Shown: piece by piece, positions 2,498 through 37,404 of the stretch
How positions within the stretch are numbered: the stretch's first letter is position 1
Layout of the letters: each line of letters begins with the position of its first letter
Source of the DNA: Colius striatus
Lineage: Eukaryota; Chordata; Aves; Coliiformes; Coliidae
Direction of reading: 5' to 3'
DNA length: 64,000 nucleotides
NCBI RefSeq assembly: GCF_028858725.1
Contig: NC_084773.1
Location: 5,384,350 to 5,448,349, forward strand
The notes under the pieces: generated by a model
Databases searched by the model: none
Told to the model about the DNA's origin: nothing
Seen by the model: only the letters and a program-made list of their open reading frames with translations
Made by a program: the position numbers and the translations under genes

Positions 2498-2527
2498 CAC
2501 AGAAAAGAGAAGCACAGAAAAGAGAAG
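2498..2527 (+). repeat. Perfect 15-bp tandem duplication
   Basis: The unit cacagaaaagagaag is present twice without mismatch (2498-2512 and 2513-2527), in the presumed HEMK1 intron 4. It looks like a recent local duplication. Confidence 0.9.
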
Positions 2528-3989: not shown

Positions 3990-4004
3990 AGTGCCCTCTA
4001 GAGG
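3990..4004 (-). promoter_or_regulatory. Candidate CTCF motif
   Basis: On the minus strand CCTCTAGAGGGCACT fits the CTCF core consensus (CC-A-SYAGRKGGCRSY) with one change (T for A at position 3). It sits in a small CpG-enriched pocket within the presumed HEMK1 intron 4. Motif match only; occupancy is unknown. Confidence 0.35.
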
Positions 4005-4169
4005 TAACGGGCCTTGGCAAGTCCCGCACCAAATGCAGCCCTTCAGTAACGAGCTCACGGTGAGGCTGAGTTCTCTTTCTCTTTGTCCTGTTTGTCCTCT
4101 GAACCACAAGGCTGCTGCTCGAGTTTTGGAAGGCCTTGCTTTGGGAAAAGAACTGTTTTGCTAACACAA

Positions 4170-4328
4170 AGAAAGGCTGAGGGAGCCCTGGCCCAGGCTG
4201 CCCAGGGAGGGTGTGGAGGCTCCTTCTCTGGAGGTTTCCCTTGATGGAGGGAGAAGCTGCTTTAGCAGGGGGTTGGGCTGGATGAGCTCTGGAGGTCCCT
4301 TCCAATCCCCATCATTGTGATTCTCCAT
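4170..4328 (+). repeat. CR1 LINE 3' end, plus orientation
   Basis: Matches the avian CR1 tail: ggctgagggagccctggccc, a 'cccaggctgcccagggag' segment, then 'ttgggctggatgagctctgg', 'aggtcccttccaatcccc' and the terminal 'attgtgattct'. This is a typical 5'-truncated CR1 insertion. Confidence 0.88.
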
Positions 4329-7300
4329 TAACACAGTGACTGAGCAATGTTGAGAGAGGGAATCCTTGACATGACAGTAATAATCACATACAGATAATGC
4401 ACAAGATTGAGTACACCTCTAAACTTTGGTCCAAGCCCTTTAGCACAGTAGAAGCCTGACTCTGATGGTCTCAGGAAAGAAGCAGGCAGGACTCCATGTC
4501 CCACAGACCCTTGCAAACCCCCTCAAGTGCTTGCAGCAGCGAGTGCAAAGCTCTGCTCTTCTCCAGGTAACTGAAGAGGGTGAAACAGGACTGCCTAACA
4601 AAACTCTCCTCCAATGCAATACATCTGTGCTCACAGAAGTATCTATCGCCTCTGCACATCAAGGAGTTCTGACTGAATGCAATCAGCTTTGTTATCCTCT
4701 GAACTTAAACAGGACCTGCTAGTTTCCTAATTTTTTCTGGCAGTCACCTCCCCACAGAACAGAACAACAAAGCCACATATGCTGAAAAACATTCCCAGAG
4801 GGAGCAAACAGAAGGGGGCTCAGCTACCAGAGAGAACTAAATAGACTACAAAGGGGCAAATTTCACACAGGGCAAAATTAAGGCGACAATTGAGCTGCTT
4901 TTGCGTGTGTCTCTCTGTCCCCAGGACTGAAACAATGCTGGTGGCTTATGTCCTACTGTGTCTGCCTTCATGCCATTACCAACGCGCTGGGAGCAAGTCA
5001 TAACCCTCCTGCTGTAACCAGAGAAGAAAATGTGTCTGATAAAGATGGCTCCTCTTCCTTTTACTCTTTGAATCAACAAGTAGGAGCACCTACATAAATA
5101 TAACTAGAAATCAAATATTGCATTGGGTATCTGCATTAACAGGTCAATTTAGCCACAGACAAGTCATTGCCACATGGCTTCTGTGTGCAGTCCCAGATAA
5201 GGGACATCAATGTTGAAGATGAATTGCTTCCTAAAGAATGAGGCTTATTTATGGGTATTAGTAGGTGAAAAGTTTCAGCACTACTGGTTTTAAGAACGCT
5301 GCAGACAAATTCTAAAGAGAAGCTGAGCAATAGATGCAACTAACTTCAATATCTTTCAAAGGACATATTTCCACTGCAGTTGTGAAGTCCAGTAAAGTAT
5401 GATTAAAGAAACCACAGGCAAACCCCAAACACACTGCACAGAGCTCTGGGTCAGCGAGGACCAACTCTTCCCTCCTCGCAGAAGGAAAGGATCTGGACAC
5501 CAGCTCACTTTGTTCAACAGGTTACACGTAGCACATGGATCCTGGAAGTAGCATGTGCCTAAAACAATGTCCTGACAGGTGCTGCTAAAGACCTGGATTT
5601 TGGCCCTGTTCTCTTCTGTTCAAGTAACCTCCCCAGCATCACATCACAAGAAAACTCTCAGTTGCTCCATTCCTGAGTTACCACCATGAACCTTCTATAA
5701 TAAATGTGATGAAAATGTGCCTTTGTAACAGGTACCATGACACATCAAATAAAGTCTTCCCAGAGAGACAAAGTTTGGGTTAAGCTGTTTATACTATATT
5801 TGTACACCAGGGTACATTACATGGTTTCAAACACAGCATGTTCCACAGCACTGCATTTCAGTTTGGGACAGCAGAGATGCTTTTACCAAAATCTCCCATG
5901 TGGGCACAATTAATACCCTCAGGCATCAGCCACCCTGGCTTCCAGTCCACACAATAGGCCTTTGTTTGAAGCCTGGCACGGCACAGAGACAATTAGAGCA
6001 CAGCACCAGAGGAGGCCTTGCCAGCAGATGTTTTGACTTGCAGAACATGTGAGTTCTCCCTGGTTTTAATGTTCATGTTGCATCCACAAATTAATGGGCA
6101 GTCAGAGGTTGGAAATACTCTCTTGAATCAACTGTAGCAGAAATACTGTTGACAAAAACAAAGCCAGCCACCACTGGGCTCCAACTGGCAAAACTATTCC
6201 TTAAAGCCCTATCTCCAAACCTAATCACAAAGTGAGAGAATCCAGACACAACAGAGACCTCACACCTTCTCTGAACACAAGTGTCAGTACTGTGATTCAG
6301 GGCCCACTAGGCTCTCAGTGAAATGCTACTGATGCCCCACACCAAGTCCACACTCTGGTTCTCAATATTCTTCTACAGGCTGGGATGAGAGGATGTCTAA
6401 ATGGTAGCTGTGCTGATTCCCTCTAAATCATCTGGAACTCTCTTATGCATTTCAGCAGCACTCTCTTCTTCAAAGAAGCACAGGCTGCCTTTGCTTTTTA
6501 TCCTCTGTGTAATAAAAGGTGTCAAAGGACTCTGCACATTGCATCCTCTCCATAGTGAGGTGCCGCTTTCTTCATACATCCCCAATACTATCCCTCCCCT
6601 AGAAAAAACAAAGGTGGTCTTCCCATCTCCAAAGCCCACTCAGCCCCCAGTGTCTCTTCTGACACTGTCAGTAGGGGATATCCTGTTTGAAAGAGCCTTC
6701 CTATTCTTTCTACAGCATTGGCCTCTGCTTGGGAGACCTGTTTTGCTTTGTAACCACTCAGGAAATGATTCTTCAGTTTCCAGTGTTTGTCCAGAAACCA
6801 CTGTGGAGCCATCGGACAGGTGGTAAATGTCATTTCCTACCAGCCTGCACTGGTTTAGTCTCCACATGGACAAACAAGCTCCTAGAGTCCATTTTCCAGT
6901 TGAAGTTTTCTACCACAGCATTTTGCTCACAGTCTTTGGATAACTTTGAGATCCTTGTTGTTGTATCAAAGCACTAAGCCACCAGGATATAAAAATACAG
7001 AGTTTGAACTTCTAGAAGTCATTATCATAGAAGAAATAAGGAAAGAAAGCCAAGTCCTTTCCTCAGTGGAGATGGATCTCTGAGTAATTGATAAACTAGT
7101 TTGCCATATCTCTTGCTCTGAGACAGGAGGCAAAGGGTTCCAGATCTTAAGTTTAGAATCCCCCTCTATTCTAAAAGAAGTGACCTTCATCTGACCTGAC
7201 TTGAATATATCTTGAGTCAATTGACCTGAATCTGACCTCCTCATGATACACTGGATGCCTTCACACAATGCTATGGTTGTGTTGCACGATGTAATTCAGA

Positions 7301-7337
7301 TTCAAGCCCACCCCTGCCACGTGTCTCGCAATCATAC

Positions 7338-7431
7338 CTCTGTTTCTGGCCGAGGAATAAATACTGGGGGTCTCATCTTCAGAGTCAGGTCCTGAAAGTC
7401 CCACTCACCAAGCACATACTGCACTGGCATT
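7338..7431 (-). CDS. HEMK1: HEMK1 third coding exon, PRPETE motif
   Basis: A 94-nt exon between a gccacag acceptor and a gtatga donor. Its first base completes Arg118, followed by 31 codons from [12 protein letters not shown] to [11 protein letters not shown]. The (I/V)PRPETE signature is a hallmark of HemK/PrmC proteins. The exon ends in phase 0 and the next exon is not visible in the remaining 7.3 kb. Confidence 0.92.
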
Positions 7432-10370
7432 CTGTGGCAGGCAAAAGCAAGTGTGAACACTTTAGGACTACACTCTGTAACACAGCAAAGCTCTCAATAC
7501 CATGCCTGCTTTGTGATTAACCACACAACCCTCCAAGGGCGAGCACCTAAATACCCCTAAGGCTTTCAACTGCACAAGCAACATGCATGTGCACTCCAAG
7601 GGAGCTGTGAGAGCTTCAGTTCCCCAAGAGTTTATCAGGCACTGGACCTGGGGAACTATAGGTCAGTCAGCCTCACCTTGATACTGGGGAAAGTGACGGA
7701 ACAAATATCCTGGAGATCATTCCTGACCTGACAGCCACCAGTGACACAATGACTAGCTCAATGCATGAGAGGGTTATCAATGCTGTTTATCTTGACTTTC
7801 CTAAGGGTGTTGATTCTATTTCCTGTAACATCCTCATATACAGGCTGATGAAGTATGGACTACATAAAAAAGGCCTAGGGGATCAGGTGAACAAACTGAT
7901 CACGTGCCCTTGCAGCAAAGGTGGTCAATGGCTTCCCAAGCTATGTTAGGCAAAGTGTTGCCAAAAGGTTGAGGGAGGGGATCCTTCCCCTCTTTTCAGC
8001 ACTGGGAGCACTAGCCTCCCAGTACAAGAGAGACACGGACTGGAGTAGGTCCAACAAATGGCCATTAAGATGATTAAGGGATTGGAGCATCTGATGTACA
8101 AGTAGAGACTGAGAGATGGGCAGTTTAGCCTTGAGAAGGGAAGCTCAGGCTAGCAGGGCAGGGGAGGAAAATCCCATCAACAACCATATGTATCAGGTGG
8201 GATGATGCCAGTGAAAAGATAGGCAAAGGGCACTGATGAAATACAGAAAAATCCATTTAAACCTAAGAACCAAATCTTCTAACCTTTTTTTTTCCCCCTC
8301 TCTCATTTTAACCACTGTGAGGGTGGTCAAACACTGGAACAGGCTACCCAGAGAGGCTGAATAGTATCTTCGGATATGTTAAAAACTGAATCTGTGAAGG
8401 CATGGCTCTCAGAATCCCAGAATGGTGAGGATTGGAAGGGATCTCCAGAGATCACTCAATCCTGCTAAAGCAGTTTCACCTTGATCAGATTGCACAGGAG
8501 AGCACTCTGAGCAACTTGCTCTAGTTATCCTGCTTTGAGCAAGGTGGTGAACCAGATTCACAGAGGTCCCTGTCAACCTCCAGGATTCTATGACCCTCTG
8601 AACTCTGGGGCCATGTTTTCAGCTGCTGAGAGGCACCATCCTTCACTTCTTTATGTAAAGCAGCAGATATTTACTGCAACTGTAACACCACTTCAGACAG
8701 AGACACTTGCAAGACAGATAGCTCTGGGAATTTTGCATTTCTGATCCTAACACTCAGGAGACTCTGAAGGAACATTTCAGGACACTGGGATCCTACAAAA
8801 AATAACCACTGCTAACATGCTGACTCCCCAAAAACCCTCACATCAGTTGTGATGTGAGAGTTCTTCACACACACACACAAGTTCTGTCAAGATTAATCTG
8901 CACAGCAGAATGAGGATGCACATCATAAACACATTCATGTGAGCAAGCAGGAGGATGCTGCCTCCAAATAGAGTCCCAAGCATCTCCCACTCTTCTAAAG
9001 GATCCAAGTCCCCAAATATTTCCTCTCTCCACACACTAGTCCCCAGGCTCAGCCTGATTCCAGCTAGCTCCTTCACACCAAACCCATTTAATTTTTGTGC
9101 TAAAACTCCTCACACAGAGTAAGCAAATAGAGGCTAGATGGAGACCAAAGCTACAGCAGCCCTGGACACCTATAAATACCAGTGACATCCTTCTCCAGGC
9201 AAAGCCTAGAAAGCAAAGCATATCAATGCCACAGACCAGTACAGGTCTGGCAGCTGAAGAGGGTGCCAAATCAGACAGAAGAGGCCAAAGGCTACATTTT
9301 GTAAGCACAAATGGGCTTAATGAAAAGGTAGCCCACTCAGAGTCAGGACTGCCAGTTTTCTGCTCCTCTGCATCATCTCTTAAAACTTTTTTGCTCCCAG
9401 ACAGGATAGACAAGTAATTTTCTACCTGACAACAGCAAATGCTCATCACTAACGGTCTTCTGCCTTCTCTCTTCTACCATTCTTCTGGGTGCACTAAAAC
9501 TGAAGGAAAACTCTCCAAAGGAAAGGCTGTAAGAGGATGCTCCTACCTTTCTAGTCGCTTGTTGCTCAGCTGCTGGATCTGCTCCTGCTGCACTGCTGTA
9601 AGTGGAGTGTGAAGGCTTTTGGAACTCAAGCTCTGAAACTGAAGACAAGGTCACTTTAAAACCTGTCCACTTGTGCCACTTGGGTATCCCCTGCAACCAC
9701 TCCAAGAGACCCAGCATGCTGGCAAACACATATGCCTGGGACTGTTGGAAACCAGAAAGCATTAGGAGAATCTATCTGCAAGACTAAACCCAAACTTGTA
9801 CAACTGTTCTTCTGTGACTTACCAGGGCTTAGAAGAATAGGTAAAATTAAGAATCATTCCACCAAGTAAGTCACGGTACAGTGTGGGTGTATATGTCATG
9901 AGTTAAATACAGTCTTTTGCAGAGATGGAAATGTAAGAGACCCCAAGTGTTCTACTGGCATTACTAAACTATGCCTCACCCTCTCTGCCACCTAAGGAAG
10001 CACAAGTTGTTCTACTTCCCCTAAGTGAGAAAAAAGAAAGGTAAGGAATTCAACCAAAATTACAAAGTGAGAAGCACACATAGACCTTATTATTTTCCTC
10101 TTACTTAACTGTTTTTGCTCCCAGGACAAATGACACAATATATTCACTGGATTCTCGTGCTTCAGGGATCCCATTTGTCTCAAACACCTTCTGCCAGTAG
10201 CTGACCGCTTCGGTGGCAGTCACAAGCCCAGGTCTGGCACTGCAGCTCTGCCTCACAGATGACTGCTTTGGGTTGAGGACAGGACCTATTCTTTCACTCA
10301 GTCGCCTTGGCATGCACTGAAGTGAGAGACCCAAGAACCTCCTGAGTAGTGTGGGGGTGAGGTGTCTCAT
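7338..10370 (-). CDS. HEMK1: HEMK1, mitochondrial release-factor glutamine methyltransferase (5' coding half)
   Basis: HemK/PrmC-family enzymes use S-adenosylmethionine to methylate the glutamine of the GGQ motif in peptide-chain release factors; HEMK1 is the mitochondrial form. Three coding exons are visible (10370-10110, 9638-9547, 7431-7338), giving 149 residues. Residues 1-50 are Arg-rich and poor in acidic residues, as expected of a mitochondrial presequence. Residues 67-79 carry [13 protein letters not shown], identical to human HEMK1 as I recall it. Exon 4 carries [12 protein letters not shown] and ends in FIPRPETE, the linker before the methyltransferase domain. The SAM loop (GCGSG type) and the catalytic NPPY were searched for on the minus strand down to position 1 and not found, so the 3' half probably lies outside the window. 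The start is the ATG at 10370; the reading upstream of it opens only with GTG. HEMK1 is divergent from C3orf18 across a shared CpG island, as in human. Family assignment is firm; completeness is not. Confidence 0.9.
7640..8610 (+). repeat. CR1 LINE with reverse-transcriptase remnant, interrupted by a second CR1
   Basis: Begins with the conserved 'gaactataggtcagtcagcc' region. It includes a decayed RT segment ([20 protein letters not shown], related to the CR1 YLDFSKAFDTVSHNIL block) and reaches the 3' end near 8600 (gaggtccctgtcaacctcc, gattctatgac). Stops and indels make it inactive. It is split by an opposite-strand CR1 fragment at about 8408-8503. It lies in HEMK1 intron 3. Confidence 0.85.
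8408..8503 (-). repeat. CR1 3' fragment nested inside the CR1 at 7640-8610
   Basis: Reads on the plus strand as the reverse of a CR1 tail: cagaatcccagaatggtgag, attggaagggatctccagag, 'cctgctaaagcag'. The host CR1 resumes straight after (gagcaacttgctctagtt). A short ctct/ctct repeat flanks it. Boundaries are approximate. Confidence 0.7.
8866..8879 (+). repeat. (CA)7 microsatellite
   Basis: Seven perfect CA dinucleotides in HEMK1 intron 3. Short; may be length-polymorphic. Confidence 0.95.
9547..9638 (-). CDS. HEMK1: HEMK1 second coding exon
   Basis: A 92-nt exon between a cttcag acceptor and a gtagga donor, ending in phase 2. It encodes residues 88-117 ([14 protein letters not shown], then [14 protein letters not shown]) plus two bases of Arg118. 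It aligns with human HEMK1 around PLTSQQLQCIRELSSRRLQR. Confidence 0.87.
10110..10370 (-). CDS. HEMK1: HEMK1 first coding exon (coding part)
   Basis: Encodes residues 1-87, from [12 protein letters not shown] to VLGAKT. The exon probably starts near 10435, after a gtgagtctcag acceptor, giving about 65 nt of 5' UTR. The donor that keeps the human-like junction (AKT then FQSL) is gttaag, in phase 0. A stronger-looking gtaaga lies 5 nt further on but would break the frame with the next exon. Confidence 0.88.
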
Positions 10371-10435
10371 TGTAGTGAAATCAGCTCCTGGCTTCCACAG
10401 GTGTTTCTCGTTGCCATCAGCTGATCTGCTCGGCA

Positions 10436-12647
10436 CTGAGACTCACAGGACACTCAGTGCTGCCTCAAGCCACCTTGGCTAAGCACCAGCTGACCACAGT
10501 CAGTGGATTCTTCTCAAAGCAGCACAAAAACAGGGCTGGTTTGCAGCTCTTCTGATCTAGAAAAAGAGGCAAGAATACAGCTGAATCTCTCAGGCTATCA
10601 AGCCACAGATTCCCCTCTGACAGAACATAGACTGCTTGCCCTAATCCCAGCCTACAGGCACAAAACCAATTACTTAGACTTTAAGATTAACAAAGGATTA
10701 CCCCAAGAAGAGACTCAAATGACAGCTAACCATCTTTTCCACTGCAATCCATTTCTTCCCAGAGCTGCCCATCTCTACAGGCCAGAGTTACCAGGAGGCC
10801 AGCCCATGCCTGTGGCAGGGTAGAAGCGAGAGTGCCTACACACAGACACAGCACTCCTGCCTGTCCTCAGGCCCAGAAAGCCATAGAGACACCAACCTTT
10901 GGCTCTGTCCCTGGCTCTTCACCCCGTGGGTCGGTCACCTTGGCTCCCTGTAGGAAGATCTTCAGTATCTCCTAGATTTTTTTATTCCTCTCTCTGCTAA
11001 TAAACCTCAAGTCCTAGGCTAATGGTTGTGCTCATAGAAGACCTTGATTCCATGGGCCAAGGGTCTTCCACACTGTCACTGTCCTCAGAGAGCAGAGAAG
11101 GGAACACACGGTAGCTGAGCTACTATGAGTAGAGAAGGGAGAAAAAGCTCACAAGGTACAACTAGAAGGAAGAGAAACACTTGAAAGATGCAAAAGCCAG
11201 AAAAGGCAAACCCTGCCAGAGAGAAATCAGTCTCTTAAAGGAGAGAGCAAGCACAGCCAGATAGAGATGGAAGAAAAACTGCAGGAGACAAAGGAGATGA
11301 AACTTTACAAAACAGCTGCTGCATATCACACTTGGAACTGTGTGAGACAAACAGAACAACCACCCCACTTTCCTGCTGTGATCCATCAGAAATGAGGGAC
11401 ACCCTTCCTCTGACTCACAGTCCCTGGAGACACTGTGGTTTTCCCTCAGCACCCATTCCCATTCCTCTGTTGACGGCTGCTTTTCATCACTGTCTCAGAG
11501 AGGCAACAACCACCCCTCCTCCAATTCGTCTGGAAAACCACCACACAAGGAACTAACTACCTCTCCTGAGCAGGCAGCAGCAGACAGGGTGGATGGCTCT
11601 GCTCTGTAGGAGTGCTGCTGAAGGGAGATCCGGGGAAGTTGGGCCAGTTCCCACCTGGGCAGATGCTGGCACTGAACCACTGCAGCAGCCCTGGACCCTC
11701 CGCACAGGGCACCTGTGTAAGCAGCAGCATGGGGCCTGCCCTGCTCCTGCTGCACAGTGAAACTGTGGGAAGAGTCAGTCCTCCACTGCCCTCCTTCACA
11801 AAACCAAATCAAACAGATCTCAGGGAAGCAGCAGAGGGGATACCCTGCAGCAAAGATCTCATGAGCGGATTACCTGCTACCTCAAAGGGGTGAGTACTCT
11901 AAGAGCCCAAGGATCCCCTTCTTACCACTTTCATTAACCCCAGAGGAAAAATAAGCAGCTCCTATGCTTGCTTTTATGTAAGCAGTTTGACAGCTACAGT
12001 CTTTACCTGAGCAGCTCCAACTCATAAGCCCTGCTATGGGGACACTGCCCAAGAGGAACACTAAAACATTAACCATTAGTATTGCTAGGGAGGCAGATAA
12101 GACTTTAATTGACCACTACTGTCATTATTAATAATGACGAGTTTAGCTACCGATGGGACGTCCCTGCACGCTACTTCTTGGTGCCAACAGCTGTTTGCAC
12201 ACAGATAGGGAGCAGATTTGTTTTTCCCTTTCAGTTCTGCGGCTGGGCCCGTTGGGCTGGGCTCCCCGCGGACCGCAGCGCAGCGCGCATCCCGCGGGCG
12301 GGCGGCGGCGCGGCCTGTCCCGCTCCCGGCCCCTGCCTCACGCTGCGTGCCGCGCCCACGGCCCCGGCGGGCGCTGGGGCTCGCGCCGTACGAGCCGAAC
12401 CTTTCTGCTGCTGGGTGAGGCGGACGGGCCGTCCCTGCCTGTACCTGGGGAGGGGACACAGGGCCCCACGCGCAGCCGGGCAGCTGCCCACCCACGCCTC
12501 GCTTCAGGGGCCGGGCGGCTCTGCCGCGGTAACCGAGCCCCACAGAACAGCTCCAGGCCCGGAGACTTTCCGTCTGTCCCGGCCTTCGCTGCCCATGCTG
12601 GCAGCGTCCCCGCTCGGCTGGCGGGCCGGGTCCCTCAGAAGCCTCAC
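10436..12647 (-). other. HEMK1: HEMK1 intron 1
   Basis: Spans from the CpG-island donor to the acceptor before the first coding exon. No repeat or coding element was recognised. GC content rises towards the island. Confidence 0.6.
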
Positions 12648-12740
12648 CTCAAGGCGGCCGCTGCTGCCGGGGCTGGAGGCGCGGCCGCGGGGCCCGGGCC
12701 CGTGTGCAGGCGCCACCCGCGCAGCCCAGCGCTGAGGGGC
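12648..12740 (-). other. HEMK1: Probable noncoding first exon of HEMK1
   Basis: Inferred from a good minus-strand donor (CTTGAG|GTGAGG) at 12648 inside the CpG island, pointing towards the HEMK1 coding exons. The 5' end is not defined; transcription probably starts somewhere in 12.70-12.82 kb, below the CCAAT pair. No HEMK1 coding sequence was recognised here. Confidence 0.45.
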
Positions 12741-12817
12741 CGCGGGACGGCCGCAGGGAAAGCGGCCGGGGCGCGCGTGCCGCCTCACGGCCGCGGCGTG
12801 AGTGACGGGCGCGGGGG

Positions 12818-12853
12818 CCAATCGCGGGCCGAGCGCCGCGGGCGTCGGCCAAT
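12818..12853. promoter_or_regulatory. Paired CCAAT boxes (candidate NF-Y sites)
   Basis: Two copies of GGCCAATCG, with CCAAT at 12818-12822 and 12849-12853. The 31-bp start-to-start spacing is close to three helical turns. Paired CCAAT boxes with near-integral-turn spacing are common in TATA-less CpG-island promoters bound by NF-Y. Binding here is inferred from the motif only. Confidence 0.6.
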
Positions 12854-12899
12854 CGCCCGGGGCTCCCGGCGGCGGGGCGGGGCCGCCGGCCGTGCGGCG

Positions 12900-13012
12900 G
12901 CACGCGCGGAGCCGAGCGGGCCGGCCCGCCCCCCGCGGGCAGCGCGGCCCCGCGGCCGCCCCAGCGCCAGCGCCGCTCCGGGGGCAGCGGCCGCCTCAGC
13001 GGGGAGCGCTCC
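12900..13012 (+). other. C3orf18: Noncoding first exon of C3orf18 (5' end approximate)
   Basis: The exon ends at a consensus donor, GCTCC|GTAAGTG, with the intron starting at 13013. No C3orf18 coding sequence is found before exon 2, so this is 5' UTR. The start is a guess placed just downstream of the CCAAT pair. Confidence 0.6.
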
Positions 13013-16000
13013 GTAAGTGCCGGCCCCGGCGGGCGGCGGCCGCCCCGGCGCGGGGGGGCGCGGCGCCGGGACGCGGCTGCCTCCGGGGAGGGGCGCGGCG
13101 GCGGCGGCGCGCTGGGCCGCGGGAGCGTCCGGCCGCGCAGCCCCGTTTCGTCTCGTCCCGTCCCGTCCCCCTGGGCTGAGGGCGCAGGCGGGGGCAGCCA
13201 CGGCCTCTGGGCGGCGGCGACGGGCGGGCCGCGGCGACTTGGGCTGTGCCCGACCCCGTGCCCGTCCCAGCCGCCGCGGGGAGGCCCAGCCAGCGGGCGG
13301 CCCCGGCCGGGCCAGGCGCAGCGCTGCGGGTGGCCCGAGCGGCGGGCGCGGGGGCACTGCGGCGGCGAGCGAGCTGCGGCTCGGGACTCGTCCTCGCCGC
13401 CTGGGAGGCGTTTCGGAGCGGGAAGGGCCGTATAACCCGTGATCCGTCTGGAAACTTCTCCCCGGGACGGGGAAGGAGCGAGTCCTCCAGGGAGAGTCCC
13501 CGGGCAGCGGTGGGGTGGCAGTGCCCGGGCGGGCTCAGGGGACGGCGGTTGCTTATGTCTCGGTGTTCTCCCAGCGCGGAGTCGGAGGAGGGGTGAGATG
13601 GCTGAGGGGTGCCGGGGTGGGACGGGACAGCGGGAGGGGGCAGCCCGAGGTGCTCCAGGACGGTGGGCACGCGCGGCTGGGGCTGCCTTGAGCCTGCTCA
13701 GTCCCATGGCAGGTGGAGAGGAAGCACAGTTCACTGCACTGGGAAGTCACATCCCGTAGCCAACACAACCCGGTGCTGCTCGCATTGCTGAATTTACTAG
13801 AGATCCTTTGTCTTGGTGAAGTAATGCAGAAAAAAATACTAGTTATTACTTGTCTTCTGCATCCAGAGACCCCACGTCCCATCTTCATCCCTGTAACACA
13901 AACCTCTGTTCCTGTCATACCCGAGGGGAAAGTGCTGCCCAGACTGATTAAAAGCAGGGCTCAGAAAAGCCACCACTCTCAAGGCAGTGCCTGATAATGA
14001 TGTTCCACATCTCAGAGGTGTTGGCTGCCATGGTGCCTATCAGAGACCAGTTTGGAAGTGCTGGCCTGGGAGAGAAACAAGCATGTTGTTATTCCCAGAC
14101 CCAGCAGAGCCCAGCACAGAGTGGCCCTGTCTGTGTGAGAAGCTCTGTTGGTGCAGGCGATGGAAGACTGCCAGCTTGCAGCAGCTGAGGATCTGGTTCC
14201 TCTTCTGTGCTGTTCTATTTGTGTATGGACTGTGCTGAAAGGTAGTAGGTGTCCCTGACCCTACAGCAGTCATCTGAGACTTGGAGTATGCCCAGCCTGC
14301 GGATCTAACTTCCAGCACCAGGATGACAAGCGGGAAATGTCATCCACTCCCAGCTCTGCCCTCTGCAACCTGGAGCAGAAAGTGCTTGGGAACAGAAATA
14401 CCCTCATCTGGGCCTGGACCAGGTTGTCTGAGTCATATCAGAAACCTTGCCTACAGGATGCTTTCAGAGCTACATCTCTGTGCTTGGAAATCCTTCAGCA
14501 TGGACAAGACCCTGAGAGCATGAGCAAGAGCCCCTATTCCCACTGGCTAATTTTAACCTAACTCTTAACTTTATTCAGCACCACAGTGCCTGGTCCATTC
14601 AAAAGGGGTCTTACCCAAAGGTGTGGCATTGGCTTTGACAGCCAAGTTCTAGTGGTTTTCCAAAACTTAACACCACACTGAGGTGAAAGCCTGACCCATT
14701 TTGTTTCTAAAATTCAGGGGCTGTTTGAGATCTAGAGCCCCTCTTTGCAAAGCCCTTGGGCTTGCCTCACTCCTTTCACTTAGGCTTTTTCTTCTACTTT
14801 TTGTTTCCTTGGTAGTGGCTTTTTGAAAAATGTGAATTATCATCATAGTGAGTTTCCCTGAATAGCACAAATCAATGATTCTGTCTGAGCAGCTGCTTGG
14901 TCTGCGCAGAACCTGCTCAACAGTTCCTTCCCATTCTCTGCTGGGCTGTAGCTGCTGCTGCTGGGACACTCAGATTCCAAATTTGCCATCTTTATGCCCA
15001 AATGTGCACTCACCTGAGCTCTGCCATGGTCTGCAATGGCTGGGGAAGGGCAGCTGCCACATGGTTTGATGGTCAGGGAAGGACACAGTCCCCTTCAGCT
15101 GCAATGAACTCGTGTCTCAGCGTGATAGGTGGGACCCGACCTGAACTGCTATACTCATGTTCTTAACGGATCTTTCTTTTATGAGGAAAGGCTGTGGGGC
15201 CTGGGGCTGCTTAGTCTGGAAAAGGCTGAGTCAGGAGGACAGGGAGACACTTTTTTCTGTAGTGTCCAGTTACAGGACCAGGGGTAATGGACAAAAGCTG
15301 GAACACAAAAAAGTTCCTCTCAAGCACAAGAAAAAACTCTTTCAGTGTTGAGGTGAGGGAGCCCTGGCCCAGGCTGCTCAGGGGGCTTGTGGAGGCTCCA
15401 TCTCTGGAAGTTTTCAAACCCAGCTGGACACATTCCTGTGTGATCTGATTGAGAGGAAGTTGCTTTAGCAGGGTGAGCTCTGGAGATCCTTTCCAGCCCC
15501 CACCATTCTGTGATTCTCCTAGAACCTGATGGGAGTGTGACAGCTCCTGGAGTCTCCCAGGCATTTGAAAGTCCCCCAGCAACTGCTGCTTCACAAAGTT
15601 GTTCACAGGGAGCTGAGAGACAGACTCTGTGGTGTGGTGAGAGGTTTACCTGCTCAGATGCAGCAAGTGCTGTGCAAGTCAAGGTGGCTGTTCAGGCTGC
15701 TGACTGACTGAGCACAGAGTAGCCTGCTGCCCTCTGCCTGGTGTGACTTCTGTGCTTCAGTCAGTGACAGATGTTAATCACACTCCATAATGCAGGTGGG
15801 GACAGCAGACAGGCGTCACAGGAATAGGAACTGCAAGAACCTTGCCTAGAATAGAACAGAGTGGGGCAGAACAATGGCTCATTTCTCTTTGCAGGCACAT
15901 CTTTTTCTCTTCAGAGCTCATTAACCCCTGTGTCCCAGCTGCATTCCAGTCCAGAGATGTAATGTCTGCTAAACTATAGAGAAATTATCAGAGGACTGCT

Positions 16001-17054: not shown

Positions 17055-17058
<4 letters not shown>
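16939..17058 (+). promoter_or_regulatory. C3orf18: Two consecutive uORFs in the C3orf18 leader, the second overlapping the start codon
   Basis: uORF1 (16939-17001) encodes 20 residues and ends in TAG. uORF2 (17005-17058) begins 3 nt later and encodes 17 residues (MDKDNSLAKRSYQELAG). Its TGA overlaps the main ATG as ATGA at 17055-17058. This suggests translation by reinitiation or leaky scanning, provided the exon starts at 16906. With the alternative acceptor at 17001 only uORF2 remains. Read directly; the regulatory meaning is inferred. Confidence 0.6.
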
Positions 17059-22314
<5,256 letters not shown>

Positions 22315-28217: not shown

Positions 28218-30329
28218 TTCAGCAGTTAGCTGTGTAAATAGGTTTCCTTGACTGTATCTGCATTACTGAGTCAACACTGTCTGTTGAACTATTGCTGTCC
28301 GTGGCAGGGCAAGGCACCGTGTTATCCAGGTATTTGTAAGACAGATTAATATCCTCACAAAAGATACACCACAAACTGTGAAAGGCATCTCTCCAACAAA
28401 GCATTTGCCATTTCTTTCCCAGAGTCTCTGTTTGGATGTTTGGGGTAAGCCAGCAGACAACAGGAGAGAAAGCTTGGCCAAAATTGTCACAAAGGAAGAA
28501 TTTGAAATCTGACATGAAAAATGCTGTTTGCTTTCCAGTCCTTTGGCTTCAGCAAGACAGGAACAGGTGGCATACTACTGAGCTGTGGCAGGGATGTTAC
28601 TCAGAGATCTCCTAAGACCAGTAGTTTTTCCAGGCTTGGAACCATCTTTTCCAGTGATGCCTAAAGGGAAAGATCAATGGGAGAGAGAGAGAGTTAGAGC
28701 TCTGGGTCCAGGAGCCAAGCTGCCCAATACAGAGTCAGTGCAAGGTTAAAAACTGGCAACGAACCATTCCCAGACAACCAAAAGTCTTCACAACAACATT
28801 CCCATTGCTCTTGTACCAGCTCCAGGCTAAAGCCTGACACAAATGGCTTCCCTGGCAGCAGGCCTCAGCATGAGACTATTGAGAGCCCAGAAGTTACAGT
28901 CTGTATGAAATGTTGTGTTTCCTGCTATGTAAACACACACAGTCAAACTCTGCTGTGAGCAGTTACACGTATTTCCAGTTGACACTCTGAATCACTGTGA
29001 CACTCAAAGTACCAGAAGTGCCTTACCCAATGTCACAGACATCAGGAAAGTAGATGCACAGAGGGTATGAATATTGTCTCAGAGTGTCTTCTGGCTACAC
29101 AGGCTTTGTGGTTAACCCCCTGGTTTCAGGAGAGCTTGGGTGACCATAAGGGCAGCAGAGAGAACAAAGAAAGACAAAGAAGATCACAGTGGACTGAGAA
29201 GAACATGGGGAAGGAAAGACAGACAAAAAGCAGCAAGATCTCAAATCTGTTTCTGGCTTTGGACTGGGCCTTAGAAATATTGCCATAAAATAAACTCATT
29301 CCTATACTCAACACCTATACTCTATTAGCCAAGCAAGGTTATTGAAATAAACCAAGGCTGGTTTTATGGCTTAGGAGGCTTTGAAATCAGCTTCATCAAT
29401 CATTGGGTAGTGATACTCATGGAAGAGAAGACAAATGCTTCTTGGCCCAGACAAAGAGAAAAATTAAACAATTGAGTTGTGATTGGCAGCAGCTGCAAGC
29501 AAACACAATAAGGTCTGAACTGTGAACAAACTCCTGCCTGCTCCTGGATTTCTTGGAGTCCTCCCTAAACACTGCCTTAGGAAAAGGGAGAGCTGGACCT
29601 CCAGCCACAAAGACCAAGGAAAAATATTTAAGCACCTCTCTGTGCCATGGCAGGTTTGCAAATCTTGCACATTTCTACTTTGTTTTTTCTGTCTTGATTC
29701 TCCCTCTATCTTGATCTCAATCTTTCAGACAGACTGACTGAAAAGCAGGGAATCAGTCATTGTTTATTTCAGCAGTTCTTCCTTAATGTTGCAGACATGA
29801 AGCCCAGAACATGAAGGGCAGATCTCCTTCCTGCTCAGAGCTGTACACCACACAACCTGCAGGATAAGCAAGCACATGTATCTCCCCATGCTCACCCTCT
29901 AGCACAGCAGCTCAAAAATCCTCACCTGAAAGGAAAAAGCAAAGCAACGAACCCAATGACTTAAATATCTGTCTGTGCCTATAGCAGAAGATTCTGTGAC
30001 TGTAGACCCTTGCTAACGAATCTCAGAGCAGTAGCCTCCTGCACCACTAGCACAAAAGCTTGCAGGAGTGTAACATCTAAGTTAAACTCACACCTATAAA
30101 ATGGATTCATCTAGAAACTACCCATCTGAAAGCTGCTATGGCTGCAACTTGCTTGCCATCAAGCCACAGGATCTACAATTTCCAGTAAGAATAGTGAGTC
30201 TTCTCTTTCCCTTTTGAGTCAGAAGTTTCTAGGGCAGGATTACCACTGCACCACAAGCTCCAAATACCGTTATGAAACCTCCCAGAGCTTTGCCAGGTTT
30301 CATACCATGTGTGCTTATCCCTGCTGATT

Positions 30330-30640
30330 TTCAACGGGCTGCTTTTGGCTTCCAGAAGCGCACACCTTTGCTGCCAGCAAACCTCCTGTCTCCGTCCCCA
30401 CGCACGGAGCGCTTTGTGCTGCAGCAGCATGTGCCGCGCTGCCGTCTCCCACCGACCGCAGCATCCGCTGCTCCCCTCACATCTGGTTCTGCCTCATTGC
30501 GACACGGAGGGAAACATTCCTCATGTCACTGCCCTCGGTCCCACTCAAACTGAAAGGAAGAGGAAAGTGCCCGCAGCGGCTGCGGTTTTGGGCGCTGCTC
30601 GAGAGCGGTACAGGCGGCAGCGCCGGGGCCGGAGGTGAGC
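30330..30640 (+). promoter_or_regulatory. Orphan GC-rich patch with exon-like donor, possible promoter and first exon
   Basis: A small CpG-enriched segment in otherwise CpG-poor DNA. It ends in a strong plus-strand donor, GGCCGGAG|GTGAGC, with the intron starting at 30635. Just upstream, around 30545-30570, is a GAAA/GGAA-rich run (AACTGAAAGGAAGAGGAAAG) resembling IRF/ETS sites. No protein is recognised in the open frames. It could start a lncRNA or an upstream exon of a plus-strand gene. A minus-strand donor-like site near 30478 leaves the direction open. Confidence 0.4.
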
Positions 30641-32157
30641 TCAGCAGCCGGGGCCTGTGGCTCTGCTGAGCTCATCACACAGCTCAGCGGCAGGAAGCGA
30701 TACGGGAGCAGGACTCTGAGAGGAAACTGAATTGAGCAGCTGAGGTTAACTGCTCTGCTGTTTTATCATGTGGCATTTCCAGGGACTAAGAACCCCAGGT
30801 TGGGTTTGGCTGCCCGGCGTCAGTTGACTCGCTTCGCACGCCACGCTCAACAGCACTAACGGCAGCGGGACGAGGGAGCAGCTGTGCTGACCACATGGCA
30901 AAACAAAGCAACATCTGCCTCTGCTGGGTTGCTGGCCCCTTCTCCATCCCACTCAGGGGAAAACACTTAATGAATGGTTTCCTACAATGCCTGCAGGAGG
31001 GAGGACTCAGCTGCACACAAGCTTTCCTGGCATCTACCTCAAACAGCCCTGAATGGTGCAGGCTGGACTTGGACTTCCACTTTCCCCGGGTTATGGTGAG
31101 GCTGAGGCTCTGGGTGGTGCACCTGTAGGTTCCTATTACAGTGGTAACAGTTATCTGGCCTCTCATCTCAGAGAAGCTCAGACAACTTCGCAGCCCTACA
31201 CAGAAACTTGCCAGTGTCGTCAACCTCTGTGCTGCTGATGCTCCACCATCTCTGCCAGCTGCTAGCAGAGAGCACAACCTTAGAGTACCAGCCCAGGACA
31301 GAGCAAGACTGTCATGGAGGCATGCTGGAGTTAATCCAGAATGTTAGCATGTCCCAACTATCAATGGGATCTTCATTTCTTGTCTTTATGTTAAGTAAGC
31401 CATTCATGACTGTTTTCACTCTCAGTGTAACACAGCCAGAGAATGTCACTGAGTCATACCTACAGCAACAAGAGCTTCAGATACATTTTTTTCTTGGAAA
31501 GAAAAATAAATAATAGATTCTCTTCCCATCCCTCTTTGCTGCCTCCACTGCTGCTGAAGGAGTCACAGCTGAGTTAGATGGAAGAAATGTGTTACCCCTC
31601 CTGTCGCCTTCCAAATTCCCCTCTGTTTGTAGGATTTACCAGAATGACTGCAGGCAGTGCTAGAGCTTTAGGGGTACATGCATGGTTTGCCAGGAGCATG
31701 GGCTGTACAGTTTAGTCTCATGTAATTACAATTATCTAATTTCAAACCTTGTGTGGCTGGTGCCAAGTTCAAATTCAAGTCGCTGCTTCCCTCAGGTTTT
31801 CCTTCCTGAGACGCTCCTTCTTGGACCATTAGCTGAGGCTGTGGAGAGAAACACCAAAAACAAACAACCCCCCCCACATGAAATTTGAGTATCAAGAGAT
31901 AAAAATGCAAATATGCAAAGTGGAAAGGGGAAAAAAAAGCCTTTGGTTAATTTCATTTAAAGCAGACTGTGCAGCTCCAAGCAGGTCTCTCTGGCATCAC
32001 TGCCTATACCCAGCCACGCACCAGCACCAGCACATACAGCGTCCTCACACATTCGCAAGTGTCTCTGAATGGTTTTACAAGAAGCCACTGTATTAGCAAT
32101 CTTAGGGGACTGGTCCCATAACATTTTGTCTATCAAAAATGAAAATGACTATTCTTT

Positions 32158-32199
32158 TTCTTCTGCTTCCCCTCCCCCACTCCCCCCCCCCAAAAAAAA
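32158..32199 (+). repeat. Pyrimidine-rich low complexity with poly(C) then poly(A)
   Basis: A T/C-rich stretch passes into a run of C and then a run of A. No gene signal. Confidence 0.85.
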
Positions 32200-32599
32200 T
32201 CCTCCACAGGTGTTAATTTTTGAACTGAAAGACCAGAATGCTTCAGGACCCGGTTTGAGTGGTGAAACACTAAAAGGAATAGAAGAAAAAGGAGACAGGG
32301 TGTGAAAAGTTGAAACTTCAATAAATGGGCATGCAGCAAAGATGTGTTTATTTATTGTTTACAAATGACTATGCAGCTCATTGTTTATCATAACAAACAC
32401 CCCATCTTACACCTCTGGCATACAATTAATTTAACCACAACCCCCAAGCCCAAACCTAGAACTGCAGCTACGACAATCTGTTACAGGAGAGAATGGCTGG
32501 AAGAGTCTTTTCCAACCCGAGTTGCAGCCTGTTATAGATGAGAGATGGCTATAAATTATTTCTAGCATGCTATAGGTGTTTATAGACTGAGCAAATCCC

Positions 32600-32700
32600 T
32601 GGGTACTCTTGAGCCAATTAGACCTGCTTTAAGCAGCAGTTTGAAGTAAAGGATCTCCAGTGGGCCTTTCCAACATGAATTACTCTATAATTCTAAGAAA
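32600..32700 (+). repeat. Diverged CR1 3' terminus
   Basis: 'agacctgctttaagcagcag', then 'aaggatctccagtgggcc', 'tttccaacatgaattact' and 'ctataattcta' follow the order of the CR1 tail with many substitutions. Confidence 0.6.
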
Positions 32701-35700
32701 ATGAAGAGGAGTGTCTGCACACACCCAGTGAGTGATAGCAGGCATTCAATACCACTCTGGGTAGATCCTGGGAGCTATCAGGATCCTCCAAACTGTTGTC
32801 TTGCTGCTTCTATGTGGCCTAAAGGTCTGAAGGAAGAATGAAGTGCCAATTGAACTGATAAGGAAGTGGTTTAATGTGATTATCATTACAGAAAAGAATT
32901 TCCATGGAATATTGCTGGGTTTTAAATTGCCCTTCTACCCACAAAAAGAGAGAGCACAGAACAGGAAAACTATTTCAGTTAGCTGTATTTGGGATGTTAG
33001 CTTTTGACAGCACACACATGGGTGTCTGTACCCCACAAGATGTTGTGGAGCATGTTCTCAGCACTGCCTGCCTGCCCCCTTTGCCTTTTCCACTGCAGGA
33101 GCCTGTCCCCAGAAGGGATGGAAGGGGCTCCTCTCTCTGCAGCCACGTCAGGCACACAGAGTAGCTACAAAGCAGGGCTGAAGCCATCTCCTCTATCACT
33201 ACTACTGTCAAATTAGCCACAAGACAGCCCAACCAGCCGGTGTTCTATAAACTGTCCCTTGCTCTGAAACTCTCTCTCCCACTTGTCCTGCATAAGGTCC
33301 TCAGCTTTATCTATATGTACTTCACTTTTTTTGGGGCTTTCCTGAACTCCACAGTAACAGAATTGTTTTGCAGCCAAGGCTTCACTGTGCCAGCAGCAGC
33401 TGGGACACAATCTATTCCTCTCACAAAATTCCATTGCCTGCTCTTTCCTTTACCAGGCAGGAAGGGAAAGGCACTGTAGTACTCCTGAGGGTTAAACTTG
33501 CCTATTTCTGATGAGATGAAGAATGCATAACCCAGTGCCTGACACCGCCTGCCAGCTCCTCTGGAGTCCTTTGGCCTCTGCATTTGCATTTACCCACTGT
33601 AGTTCACAGCTACACATGCAGGACACATCTGTTTGTACCATTGTCCAAGACAAGGTAGTAGGTGAGGCCTCCTTCCCTCTCTCTTCTCAACCTCTGCCTC
33701 CCCTCACACCCACAGCTGAGTCAAATGGCATCTGCTGATGAATATCTCTCTTATTCCATCTTATATTCAGCAATATCCAGACTGCTTCAAAGCTACTTGC
33801 AAAGCACTGCTGCCCTTCACGGCTCCCAGGAAAGGCCTGTCACCCCATTCAGAATGTCTGCTACTCCTCATGCAACCAGTGGATGCCAGTCCCTGACCTG
33901 GGGACTGATGTTGATCTGTTCTCATCAGTGCTTTTTCCAGCACAAACACTCCTCTTAGCTATTGCTTTATAGCTGAGTTGCAACTTCAGAGTAACTTCTA
34001 ATGGTCAGCCTCTGAGCTCCCCAAAACGTCCATCTGTTTGCCTCCAGGGTGTGTCTGAAACTCTGGTGCAAAGCAATTTGTCACTTGTCAAACAGCAGCC
34101 AGCCCTTTCATGAAAGGGTGAGGAACCCTCTCATCCAGGACGACCTGTCAGAGAAGGGAGAACCCTGCAATCACCATCCTTCTGGAACACTTATACTACC
34201 TTGCACTTTATTTTTATAAAGTTATCTTTGATCCATATTACCTGGGGAGTCAGAGGTGTGTTTTCTGGCTGTACAGGTCCGTCCCCATCCCTAGCTCTAG
34301 TTCAGGTTGCTGTCTCTCACACTTAGCTGTATTACCCTGGCACCTTCAGTCCAGCTCAGCAACATTCAGCTCTGTTCTCTATGAGTAGATAATGATGCCT
34401 CCCTTCTAGCAGTCCCTTTTCTCCTGGACACTCTGCCTAAACAGGACTGTACTCCTGCTTACAGAGCCTTTAGGAAGGAATACAAGATCTTTCCCACAGA
34501 ATCTGATCTCTTTCTGATCTGCTCCATCCTTCAAAGGGAATCAAGACTTAGGACTGGCTGTGCCTCTTTACCCCTTTCTGGTATCTCTCCAATGCACATG
34601 GCTCCAGCATACACCCCTGAGCTATAAATGTTCAAGTCATTTTGCTTCCTAGCTTGTATCTAATTCATATAAAGGCATCTAGAAGGCATCCTATGATTCT
34701 ATGATCTTCTCTCCTTATTTGGTCTTGCTTCATATTTTTCCCTCATCTCGTTTCCTCTCTCTCTAAAAAACACAGACACCCCAATTATTTACTATTTTGC
34801 AGCCCTGAGATGTTTCTTTTTCCTCCAAATGCTTTTCACAACCACTTGTCCATGGCACCTTACCGCTACTGAAAGGGAGAATGTGTCCATTATTCATGCC
34901 CTTCTAGGTTCTCCTGCTTGTCTGAGACTTGTCAGCCCATGAATGGCACCAGCAGAACTCACTGGGTAAGATGTTTTGGTCTAAGACACAGGTCATTTCT
35001 GCCTCCAGTCATTTTCCATAGAGCTTGAGGGTCCCAGTTTGCAGACCTGGTTGCTTTAGGCACTGGTAACATACCAGATTTCCTTACCCAGTGTATTTAA
35101 ACAACAGCAACATAATAAATGGGTTTAGAAAAAGCTTTTAGCAAATGCTATGTGCTGGGCTAGATTGTGACCTTCTCACCTGGATTTCTAAGAAGAAACA
35201 GTAGCTGGACCCATTTATGGAGCAGATGTCTTGTCTGGGAGATTCAGTCCTGCACTGGATTTGCAGACACTTTCCCTCCACCCGTATCCAAGATATATTT
35301 GTATGCCAAGGTCACTGGCATTCCATAAAAGTCTTCTAACGTCCCTCACATCCTGGCAGTTCCTCCCTGGTGAAGATTTCCTTCCAAGCCTCCTGTGTAG
35401 CCCTCAGAGACTGCTCTATTTCTGTTTCTGCTGAACCAGACACTGTCTCTTTCCATCCCAAGCACTTCCTGTGGCACCACAGCTGTAGAACAAACCTATG
35501 AATTCCTGCACAGCTTGGGCTTGGACTAGAACGTTTTGTGGTATGAGACATATATAATGGTTGGTTGTTGCTGTGGGCTTTTTAAACCATTCCTAATGAT
35601 AGATAGAATGTCATTAATTGTTCACAGGATTGAATATCCTTATTGATTAAGAATTTTGAGGGTTTTTTTCATGCCTGAAGCATTCTGTCTTTGTCTACTG

Positions 35701-36171
35701 ATTGTTACTAATCTTTTGTTTGCTGCATAAAAGAGCCTCCTGCTGGCAGGATTCAAAGTTTTGCCATTCACCAAATTCCTCTTTTTGCTTAATTTTAAGC
35801 TGCTTCTTTTGAGACCAACTGACACACTAAGCAATCACTGCAGTTTTCAAGACCCCTGAGAAGACAATCTCTCTGCTTGAGAAAGGATGTCGCCTCTGGC
35901 CTGACATTTCAAGCCTGGGAAGGTACTATGGAAGACTATTATGTCTTGAATTAAAACCAGCAGCTCTCCTGGGCTCACAGAATTCTGCAGGAGATGAATC
36001 TTAGGGGTGACTGGAAAGGCACTCAGAGCTTCCTTAACTTGTTAGATTTCCAGCCCACATAGGCTGAAAGAATGTCATTGCAGAGGACAAGCCTGAGAAG
36101 AGCCAACACAACTGAAAATTCCCCAGGATCTGGGACTAGAGAAGAGGAAAAGAACCCAACACCATACTCAC

Positions 36172-36219
36172 CCACTTGCGGGGCCTTCCTCTTGGCCTTT
36201 TCCCAGCAGAAGGTTCTAC
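36172..36219 (-). CDS. HMGA-like exon with AT-hook 3 (48 nt)
   Basis: Between caatatag and TGG|GTGAGT, encoding VEPSAGKRPRGRPRKW. Human HMGA2 exon 3 is 51 nt and ends EKRPRGRPRKW at the same codon. Reading through the donor gives 11 unrelated residues and a stop, so a downstream exon is expected. Confidence 0.85.
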
Positions 36220-37404
36220 CTATATTGTAAACAAGGGGAAAAAAACCCATTCTTAGCTCTCCTGTTTGCTGGGCACTGTGACTAATACACTGGCCACAGT
36301 AACCTCTGCATAAACTTCTGGTGAGACAAGTAGCAGAAGAGGCAAAAGTTGGGGATGGATGACAGTTGAGGAGGAAATGCCTGGCAGACTTTGCTGGTTG
36401 TGATTATTTTTTAACAGTGATGGAGAAACACTAGAAGGAACCTGCTGAACAGGCTGGGGCAACACAGGAAGGCTGGGAGGTGAGTTAGGACTCAAACCAC
36501 AGGAACGAGTTTGTCCCACAGTGACAATTAAAGCTGCACTGAAATAGAGGCAGCTTTCACTGTCTGTATTTCAGCTAAGAGAAACCTCCCTGCTTGTCCA
36601 CCAGCAGTGCTTAAAGAAGGGACAATCAGCTTCTCCCTCTGTCAGAAAAGAATATAAGCCTTTTCTCTTACCACCTGCCCAGATACTGCAGTCACTTTCT
36701 TGCTCCCCTTTGGCCTTCCTCGTGGTTTCTTCATTGGTAATGGTTCCACAGCCTCCTCCTGAGATGAAAATCATTTAAGCAGGATGATCTCTGGAACAAT
36801 TTACAGCTTCTCATTCTAATGTGTCTTAGACTGTCTTACACCAATAGCCCTCATACCACTAAATACCAGGTTGTCTCTGCTTTTCCAATAGCCCAAAAGA
36901 CAAAGGGGTAGGGGTGAGGAAATTAATACATTCCCAGAACTCTGACCATAGTGCACAGTGCCTGGAATGCAGAGAGAGAAGGCCTTGGCTTTCTCCACTC
37001 CAACTACTGGTGCAGAAACAGGGTGATGACACCTGAAAGTCTCCAGCTTGGAAGGGAGACTTGGTTAGCTCCTCTCATGCCATTTCCTGGCCTGAACAGC
37101 CATGTCCTGCCACATGACAAGAACCTCTGAAGCCAATGGCTGAGGTGTGCCAGGCTGCACATCACTATTGCTTTCCTGAATAGCAGTACAATTTACCACA
37201 GAACATCTCAGCTTCCTTTACTCTTTGTTAGCTGCTTCCCACCACTGCCTGCAAATCCTATCAGCTAATGCCACAGCATCCCTCAGGCAGCTGCTCATGA
37301 TGAGGTGCCCTCACCTGTGGCTGCTTCTTTGGTCTTCCCCTCTTTCTCTTCAGGCCCTCTGTCAGTGTTGATGAGCCAGGGCTCATTGGCCTCTCATTGC
37401 TCAT
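36172..37404 (-). CDS. HMGA-family AT-hook chromatin protein, apparent extra HMGA paralog (3' end not found)
   Basis: Three spliced exons (37404-37315, 36758-36672, 36219-36172) encode 75 residues with three AT-hooks: KRGRPKK (21-27), PRGRPKG (42-48) and RPRGRPRKW (67-75). HMGA proteins are architectural chromatin factors whose GRP cores bind the minor groove of AT-rich DNA. The layout is that of HMGA2: hook 1 ends exon 1 in a Gln-rich RPKKQPQ; exon 2 is 87 nt with RGRPKGSK; exon 3 ends exactly at RPRKW; all junctions are phase 0. Sequence outside the hooks differs from both HMGA1 and HMGA2, and the locus (beside C3orf18) is not that of either human gene. The start ATG has a good context (GCCAACATGA). 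All splice sites are consensus and no stop or frameshift is seen, so this is not a processed copy. The acidic tail typical of HMGA was not located. Identity as an HMGA-family gene is strong; a functional product is inferred. Confidence 0.82.
36672..36758 (-). CDS. HMGA-like exon with AT-hook 2 (87 nt)
   Basis: Between tttcatctcag and GTG|GTAAGA, encoding 29 codons: EEAVEPLPMKKPRGRPKGSK then KVTAVSGQV. Human HMGA2 exon 2 is also 29 codons with KRPRGRPKGSK in the same position. An in-frame alternative donor 3 nt earlier (CAG|GTGGTA) would drop the last Val. Confidence 0.85.
37315..37404 (-). CDS. HMGA-like exon with AT-hook 1
   Basis: Thirty codons from MSNERPMSPGSSTLTEG to KRKRGRPKKQPQ, then donor CCACAG|GTGAGG. 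The Ser/Pro/Thr-rich lead-in and the Gln-containing end after the hook recall HMGA1/HMGA2 exon 1. The exon may continue upstream as 5' UTR; a plausible acceptor (ttttctttcacag) lies about 55 nt upstream of the ATG. Confidence 0.82.

Follow-up and report, generated by a model that had tools for sequence, protein, structure and literature searches.

The window, a stretch of 64 kb of contig C17 of the mousebird (Colius striatus) genome, carries on its minus strand a gene of five coding exons, whose product of 133 amino acids contains three AT-hooks of the type found in HMGA proteins. The features recognised in the window, with positions counted from its first nucleotide, are the following:

28575..37404, minus strand: whole coding span of the HMGA-type gene, 5 exons, 133 aa, translation identical to the protein P0121
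37315..37404 (37404–37315), minus strand: coding exon 1, 90 nt from the ATG, first AT-hook KRKRGRPKK, phase 0 donor gtgagg
36672..36758, minus strand: coding exon 2, 87 nt, second AT-hook KKPRGRPKGSK, donor GTG/gtaaga
36172..36219, minus strand: coding exon 3, 48 nt, third AT-hook KRPRGRPRKW, end RPRKW/gtgagt
31748..31838, minus strand: coding exon 4, 91 nt, PQLMVQEGASQEGKPEGSSDLNLNLAPATQ, phase 1 at its end, located by tblastn with bird relatives and by splice sites
28575..28660, minus strand: coding exon 5, ITGKDGSKPGKTTGLRRSLSNIPATAQ followed by a TAG stop, non-acidic tail kept in birds, located by tblastn with bird relatives
17055..22310, plus strand: C3orf18, in pieces 17055–17291, 20218–20367 and 22239–22310 (tblastn E 2e-18, 2e-22 and 7e-9)
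12001..13750, no strand: CpG island, GC 0.59–0.82 and CpG o/e 0.82–1.01 over 12001–13500; 0.54 in 13501–14000

Exons 1, 2 and 3 translate to MSNERPMSPGSSTLTEGLKRKRGRPKKQPQ, EEAVEPLPMKKPRGRPKGSKKVTAVSGQV and VEPSAGKRPRGRPRKW, respectively, with GT-AG borders and phase-0 junctions, and this agrees with the first-pass annotation, which had recognised three minus-strand exons, three AT-hooks and junctions in phase 0. A weaker alternative donor in exon 2, 3 nt upstream, would leave 84 nt. The third exon had been taken to end the gene at RPRKW, giving a product of 75 residues; the exon does end there, and 75 amino acids are indeed encoded up to that point, but two more coding exons were found by tblastn, and the three-exon protein was consequently rejected in favour of the full-length one. 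Exons 4 and 5 have AG acceptors, and the donor of exon 4 (CAAG/gtttga) is not strong. Joined together, the five exons form a 402-nt CDS of 133 codons followed by TAG, with no stops, frameshifts or disabling changes, and its translation is, letter for letter, that of P0121, the NCBI C. striatus ‘HMGI-C-like’ protein, with the product of exon 1 corresponding to residues 1–30.

A six-frame search of the window yielded three RGRP-type matches and no others, all of them in exons 1–3. Second-order Markov resampling of the window yielded a mean of 0.02 and a maximum of 1 such match, and none of 100 resampled windows reached three, so that a chance origin of the hooks was rejected. The Pfam AT_hook model scored 23 bits on the product (cut-off 17.4), two stretches passing singly. 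As in HMGA genes, three hooks with the RGRP core follow one another in order, and introns with phase-0 junctions lie between them; with the introns kept, a retrocopy is rejected, in line with the original reading. The product retrieved no family in an NCBIfam search and, as a 74-aa query, no match in a PDB sequence search, and Rfam and tRNA scans found nothing in the 64-kb window. A GC- and CpG-richer patch (CpG o/e 0.54) was seen at 30001–31000, in the intron between exons 4 and 5.

C3orf18, named in the first-pass annotation as the neighbour of the gene, was located with a human query sequence, and is arranged tail to tail with the HMGA gene; its joined pieces matched no Pfam family. To the left of the CpG island, in window positions 1–13750, the minus strand carries a HEMK1-type fragment (TIGR03534, E 2.9e-9; the short piece scores 36.7 bits, vs a whole-protein cut-off of 199), with weak support from Pfam and PDB (E 0.043 and 0.0025). 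The island is probably a shared two-way promoter of C3orf18 on the plus strand and the HEMK1-type gene on the minus strand. To the right of the HMGA gene there is a CACNA2D gene, the matched VGCC_alpha2 domain of which lies about 0.37 Mb off, on the plus strand at C17:5.793–5.797 Mb; we take this gene to be CACNA2D2.

Distinction from HMGA1 and HMGA2

The HMGA family is usually credited with only two vertebrate genes. Both are present elsewhere in the Colius genome, HMGA2 (exons 1 and 2) on contig C1 at about 171.30 Mb and HMGA1 (four exons) on contig C27 at about 3.18 Mb. Used as a query against the genome, the 74-aa product matched this locus only, with two exon matches; a bird HMGA1 query gave seven matches in all at E up to 10, namely three at C27:3.18 Mb, a weak one at C1:171.30 Mb (E 0.0025) and three poor ones. 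In local tblastn over the C1 stretch, HMGA2 exons 1 and 2 matched their chicken counterparts at 92% and 100%, respectively, and the four HMGA1 exons were recovered from the C27 stretch. In all three genes of this genome the junction of exons 1 and 2 falls at the homologous point. Exon 2 comprises 87 nt in HMGA2 and 81 nt in HMGA1, as delimited by the match. The equal size of the middle exon and HMGA2 exon 2, pointed out earlier, is real in C. striatus, but it is partly a coincidence, since in the protein alignment turtles have 28 residues over the corresponding stretch, and kiwi has 27.

Since HMGA2 resides on C1 and HMGA1 on C27, the gene on C17 is a third gene and not a misplaced copy of either of them, as the first-pass annotation had proposed. 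That HMGA1 or HMGA2 itself maps here, through translocation or an error of assembly, was one of its own caveats; nothing counts for such an explanation, both genes being accounted for in Colius, and Phaenicophaeus likewise carrying the three on contigs of different length, 23.9, 8.4 and 207 Mb (P0005, P0068 and P0220), and we reject it as having practically no probability left.

The gene is already present in databases under automatic names. The sauropsid loci called ‘high mobility group protein HMGI-C-like’ at NCBI are the same gene, and other names given are ‘HMG-I/HMG-Y-like’, ‘uncharacterized’ and ‘AAC-rich mRNA clone AAC11 protein-like’; none of these names marks it as a distinct third paralog. 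No paper on a third HMGA gene at this locus was found in the literature searched, which takes in few subscription papers and not the principal one on the evolution of HMGA genes in chordates. A passage in one article gives HMGA three members, HMGA1–3, and leaves HMGA3 undescribed (PMC9295051). In two others, ‘hmga2b’ was matched by the title of a reference on Xenopus hmga2beta (PMC3723657, PMC7013770).

Conservation and expression

Searches were made with the 75-aa product (best 120 of 126 matching proteins listed) and with the full-length protein (best 120 of 304 matches listed), where each row stands for a 90% cluster and a single species may contribute several isoforms. With the full-length query, the first 94 of the best 120 of 304 matches are the third gene, 88 with a species name and six without, and all 88 named rows among these listed matches belong to birds, Alligator (A. 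sinensis), turtles or squamates; HMGA2 was matched at E of about 1e-11 to 1e-8, mostly through the hooks. The third gene is thus common to birds, crocodilians, turtles, lizards and snakes. An alignment of 21 rows (20 sauropsid and one caecilian) has 23 invariant columns of 142, nearly all in the hooks. The reading frame is open and the hooks are kept in the sauropsid relatives aligned, which speaks against the concern, raised at the outset, that all relatives might carry disabling changes.

Exon 5 accounts for 28 residues, of which Colius shares 25–27 with owl, kiwi and duck, 24 with sparrow, 20 with quail, 17 with Alligator and one turtle, 15 with a softshell turtle and 7–12 with squamates. 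The hook region is 87% identical (58/67) between Colius and kiwi, compared with 83/83 for HMGA2 of parrot and kiwi and 74/79 for HMGA1 of finch and emu; in the pairs compared, the third gene evolves faster than HMGA1 and HMGA2. Some predicted isoforms in passerines and a snake have no hook 3 (P0036, P0039, P0041 and P0042), and some have unrelated ends. Songbird versions carry a DGGNTAIIPQ-like insertion at the opening of exon 2 (P0137, P0025, P0036, P0041 and P0148, and also P0142 and P0145).

Continuous five-exon reading frames of 133–137 aa are present in P0124, P0131, P0142 and P0145, where the longest contig of the cluster measures 1,971–3,430 nt, and contigs of 1.2–1.6 kb carry P0012 and P0024, of which one ends differently and the other has a shorter exon 2. 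As the coding span is 8.8 kb in mousebird, exons joined on contigs this short point to spliced RNA, in bird species other than Colius. Three further short contigs (P0047, P0057 and P0062) and a longer one (P0050) read from exon 1 into the intron. The galliform-like P0024 and P0012 appear to be alternative splice forms, showing the shortened exon 2 and a different final exon, CYRLPESVK...; in the window, the latter is matched most closely at 21484–21431 on the minus strand (12/18 residues), past exon 5 and within the span of C3orf18.

The kilobase bin with exon 1 of the third gene has a CpG o/e of 0.07 and no CpG island, and the 1.8 kb around exon 1 has 0.79 in HMGA2 and 0.19 in HMGA1; such a CpG-poor first coding exon suggests that the gene may be expressed more narrowly than HMGA2. 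The 3′ UTR of HMGA2 carries let-7 sites. The let-7 7-mer CTACCTC does not occur within 6.5 kb downstream of the stop of the third gene, where 0.37 occurrences are expected by chance, so its absence says little.

The faster protein evolution, the isoforms lacking hook 3 and the first coding exon without a CpG island could all be accommodated by a decaying gene or an annotation artefact without function. Against this stand the intact five-exon frame with hooks kept in the sauropsid relatives aligned, the near-identity of exon 5 in owl, kiwi and duck (lower in quail) and the joined-exon frames on short contigs, and we regard decay as very improbable.

Phylogeny and origin

Outside sauropsids, Latimeria has both HMGA2 (P0105) and a distinct HMGI-C-like protein (P0210), HMGI-C-like proteins were detected in Heterodontus, Rhincodon and Polyodon, and teleosts possess hmga2b; a caecilian protein was also used as a query (best 120 of 347 matches listed). 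The proteins of echidna, caecilian, coelacanth, sharks and paddlefish and the teleost ‘hmga2b’ probably belong to the third gene, which many fishes would probably share, and the fish genes are likely to be orthologous to that of sauropsids. Among the matches listed no therian third-gene protein was found, the therian ones there being named HMGA1 or HMGA2. The suggestion that mammals lost the gene needs narrowing, as the echidna protein groups with the sauropsid gene. Shark HMGA1a-type proteins (P0058, P0059 and P0077) apparently have four AT-hooks, with an extra KPRGRPRK ahead of the acidic tail.

A tree was inferred from 58 hand-picked cores cut at the third hook (82 columns). It contains an HMGA1 clade (100/99), an HMGA2 clade (94/81), a clade of the sauropsid gene with the echidna protein (99/99), where the latter sits on a long branch, and a group of shark, coelacanth, paddlefish and teleost-2b proteins with the caecilian one (88/89). 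HMGA2 being on C1, the gene is not the HMGA2 locus, nor do the free trees place the sauropsid gene inside the HMGA2 clade: with 58 cores it joins lamprey and falls outside a grouping of HMGA2 with the fish proteins (87/12 and 92/79). A single clade of all third genes was not rejected (p 0.53) and had a log-likelihood 0.47 above that of the free tree. In a reduced set omitting five long-branch rows (echidna, caecilian and three teleosts), the best tree joined the sauropsid and fish third genes with a support of 50/77, the sauropsid gene (100/100) being next to one teleost row (61/81) and not beside all fish; HMGA2 had 77/41 in this set, and the AU test did not reject the fish third genes with HMGA2 (p 0.47). 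With the sauropsid rows removed, the fish third genes formed a clade (71/85) beside HMGA2 (82/82). Forcing teleost hmga2b together with teleost HMGA2 cost 19 and 17 log units in two sets and was not rejected by the AU test (p 0.08 and 0.10). With a short core of about 82 columns and a long branch to the amniote gene, the tree does not prove where the third gene attaches at depth; that the gene is ancient is the favoured and likely reading, short of proof.

The chromosomal surroundings were compared through families predicted before searching, on the basis of the human map, as neighbours of HMGA2 with their other copies on C17; the comparison covers these chosen families, with best candidates scored, and is not a genome-wide scan. 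Six exon pieces of CAND (PF08623) were found only at C1:170.66 Mb and C17:22.11 Mb, and Ubiquitin_3 of USP4/15 (PF14836) only at C1:172.71 Mb and C17:7.65 Mb, in both cases among the best candidates of the tool. CACNA2D occurs at C1:196.6 Mb and C17:5.79 Mb, the C1 copy being 25 Mb from HMGA2. LEMD2/3 (PF09402) had no match anywhere in the genome, controls included. Of these four families, three had been expected near HMGA2: two behaved as predicted and LEMD had no match. Judging by CAND and USP4/15, the block around the gene is paralogous to that around HMGA2, and their second copies on C17 are as expected of an early genome-duplication copy of HMGA2. An origin in the vertebrate whole-genome duplications, proposed by the first-pass annotation, gains support from these neighbours, but the deep position in the tree leaves it without proof.

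Alternatively, the gene could have arisen later, within amniotes or sauropsids, by duplication of HMGA2 (or, less likely, HMGA1), followed by transfer to this locus and rapid evolution; the fish hmga2b genes would then be a separate matter. The AU test leaves the amniote gene standing with HMGA2 (p 0.44 with 58 rows and 0.38 in the reduced set) and with HMGA1 (p 0.24), none of these being rejected, and the higher rate in the pairs compared would also fit. It is countered by the similar non-HMGA2 genes in echidna and probably in caecilian, coelacanth, shark and paddlefish, by the paralogs of two HMGA2 neighbours on the chromosome of the gene, and by the union of sauropsid and fish third genes once the five long-branch rows are left out; we consider a late duplication unlikely. 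With good confidence, we interpret the gene as a real, transcribed third member of the HMGA family, most likely a copy from an early vertebrate genome duplication that is still present in sauropsids, and propose the name HMGA3 for it.

The C-terminal tail and comparison with known HMGA proteins

After hook 3, the Colius protein continues for 58 residues with a net charge of +1, and an acidic C-terminal tail is lacking. In three other birds, one turtle and Alligator, this part has a net charge of 0 or +1; the values are −5 to +4 for four squamates, −1 in the caecilian, −4 in the echidna and −6 to −11 in six fish third-gene rows, with −5 to −12 in six HMGA2 rows and −7 to −9 in four HMGA1 rows. 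In the birds, Alligator and turtle checked, a neutral tail thus replaces the acidic tail of HMGA proteins, and because of the absence of the latter we file the gene as a diverged paralog rather than as an ordinary HMGA protein.

Through its three AT-hooks, the product would be predicted to bind the minor groove of AT-rich DNA and, by analogy with HMGA2, may act as an architectural chromatin protein. According to one study, the dimerisation of HMGA2 owes much to contacts between the hooks and the acidic C-terminus (PMC4482583). The birds, Alligator and turtle checked do not have the acidic tail, so that this electrostatic tail-to-hook contact should be missing, and a mostly monomeric protein, binding DNA more freely, would be expected.

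For the family as a whole, we lean, with reservations, towards a scenario in which early jawed vertebrates had at least three HMGA genes, the third being kept in sharks, coelacanth, paddlefish, teleosts, caecilians, echidna and sauropsids and lost in therians; the name hmga2b, which treats the teleost copy as a duplicate arisen in teleosts, would be a misnomer, and the line of birds, crocodiles and turtles would have exchanged the acidic tail for a new, conserved neutral one, so that the usual contact of an HMGA protein with itself would be absent. Body size, development and tumours are all influenced by HMGA1 and HMGA2. HMGA2 is the candidate gene for beak size in Darwin’s finches, as stated in PMC7013770. 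An unnoticed third paralog in birds and reptiles would render two-gene knock-downs, haplotype studies and evolutionary accounts incomplete, and a natural HMGA protein without an acidic tail would allow a direct test of the role of the tail.

Of the known proteins, HMGA2 shares with the third gene the three AT-hooks in order, the tryptophan after hook 3, the exon junction after K-Q-P-Q, the 87-nt exon 2 (in Colius) and, in many third-gene relatives, a PQxVVQ-like start of exon 4. The third gene differs from it in having its own locus on C17, other linkers, no acidic tail, no CpG island at exon 1 and a faster evolution; its exons 4 and 5 are presumably also longer than those of HMGA2. HMGA1 has three AT-hooks and the exon 1/2 junction in common with the third gene; in contrast to the latter, it has no tryptophan after hook 3, ends in a short acidic tail, resides on C27 and forms its own strongly supported clade. 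The fish ‘hmga2b’ and the ‘HMGI-C-like’ proteins of shark, coelacanth and paddlefish have the three hooks, the tryptophan, a shortened linker before hook 3 and often an MSN start in common with the sauropsid protein, from which they differ by the acidic tail that they have kept.
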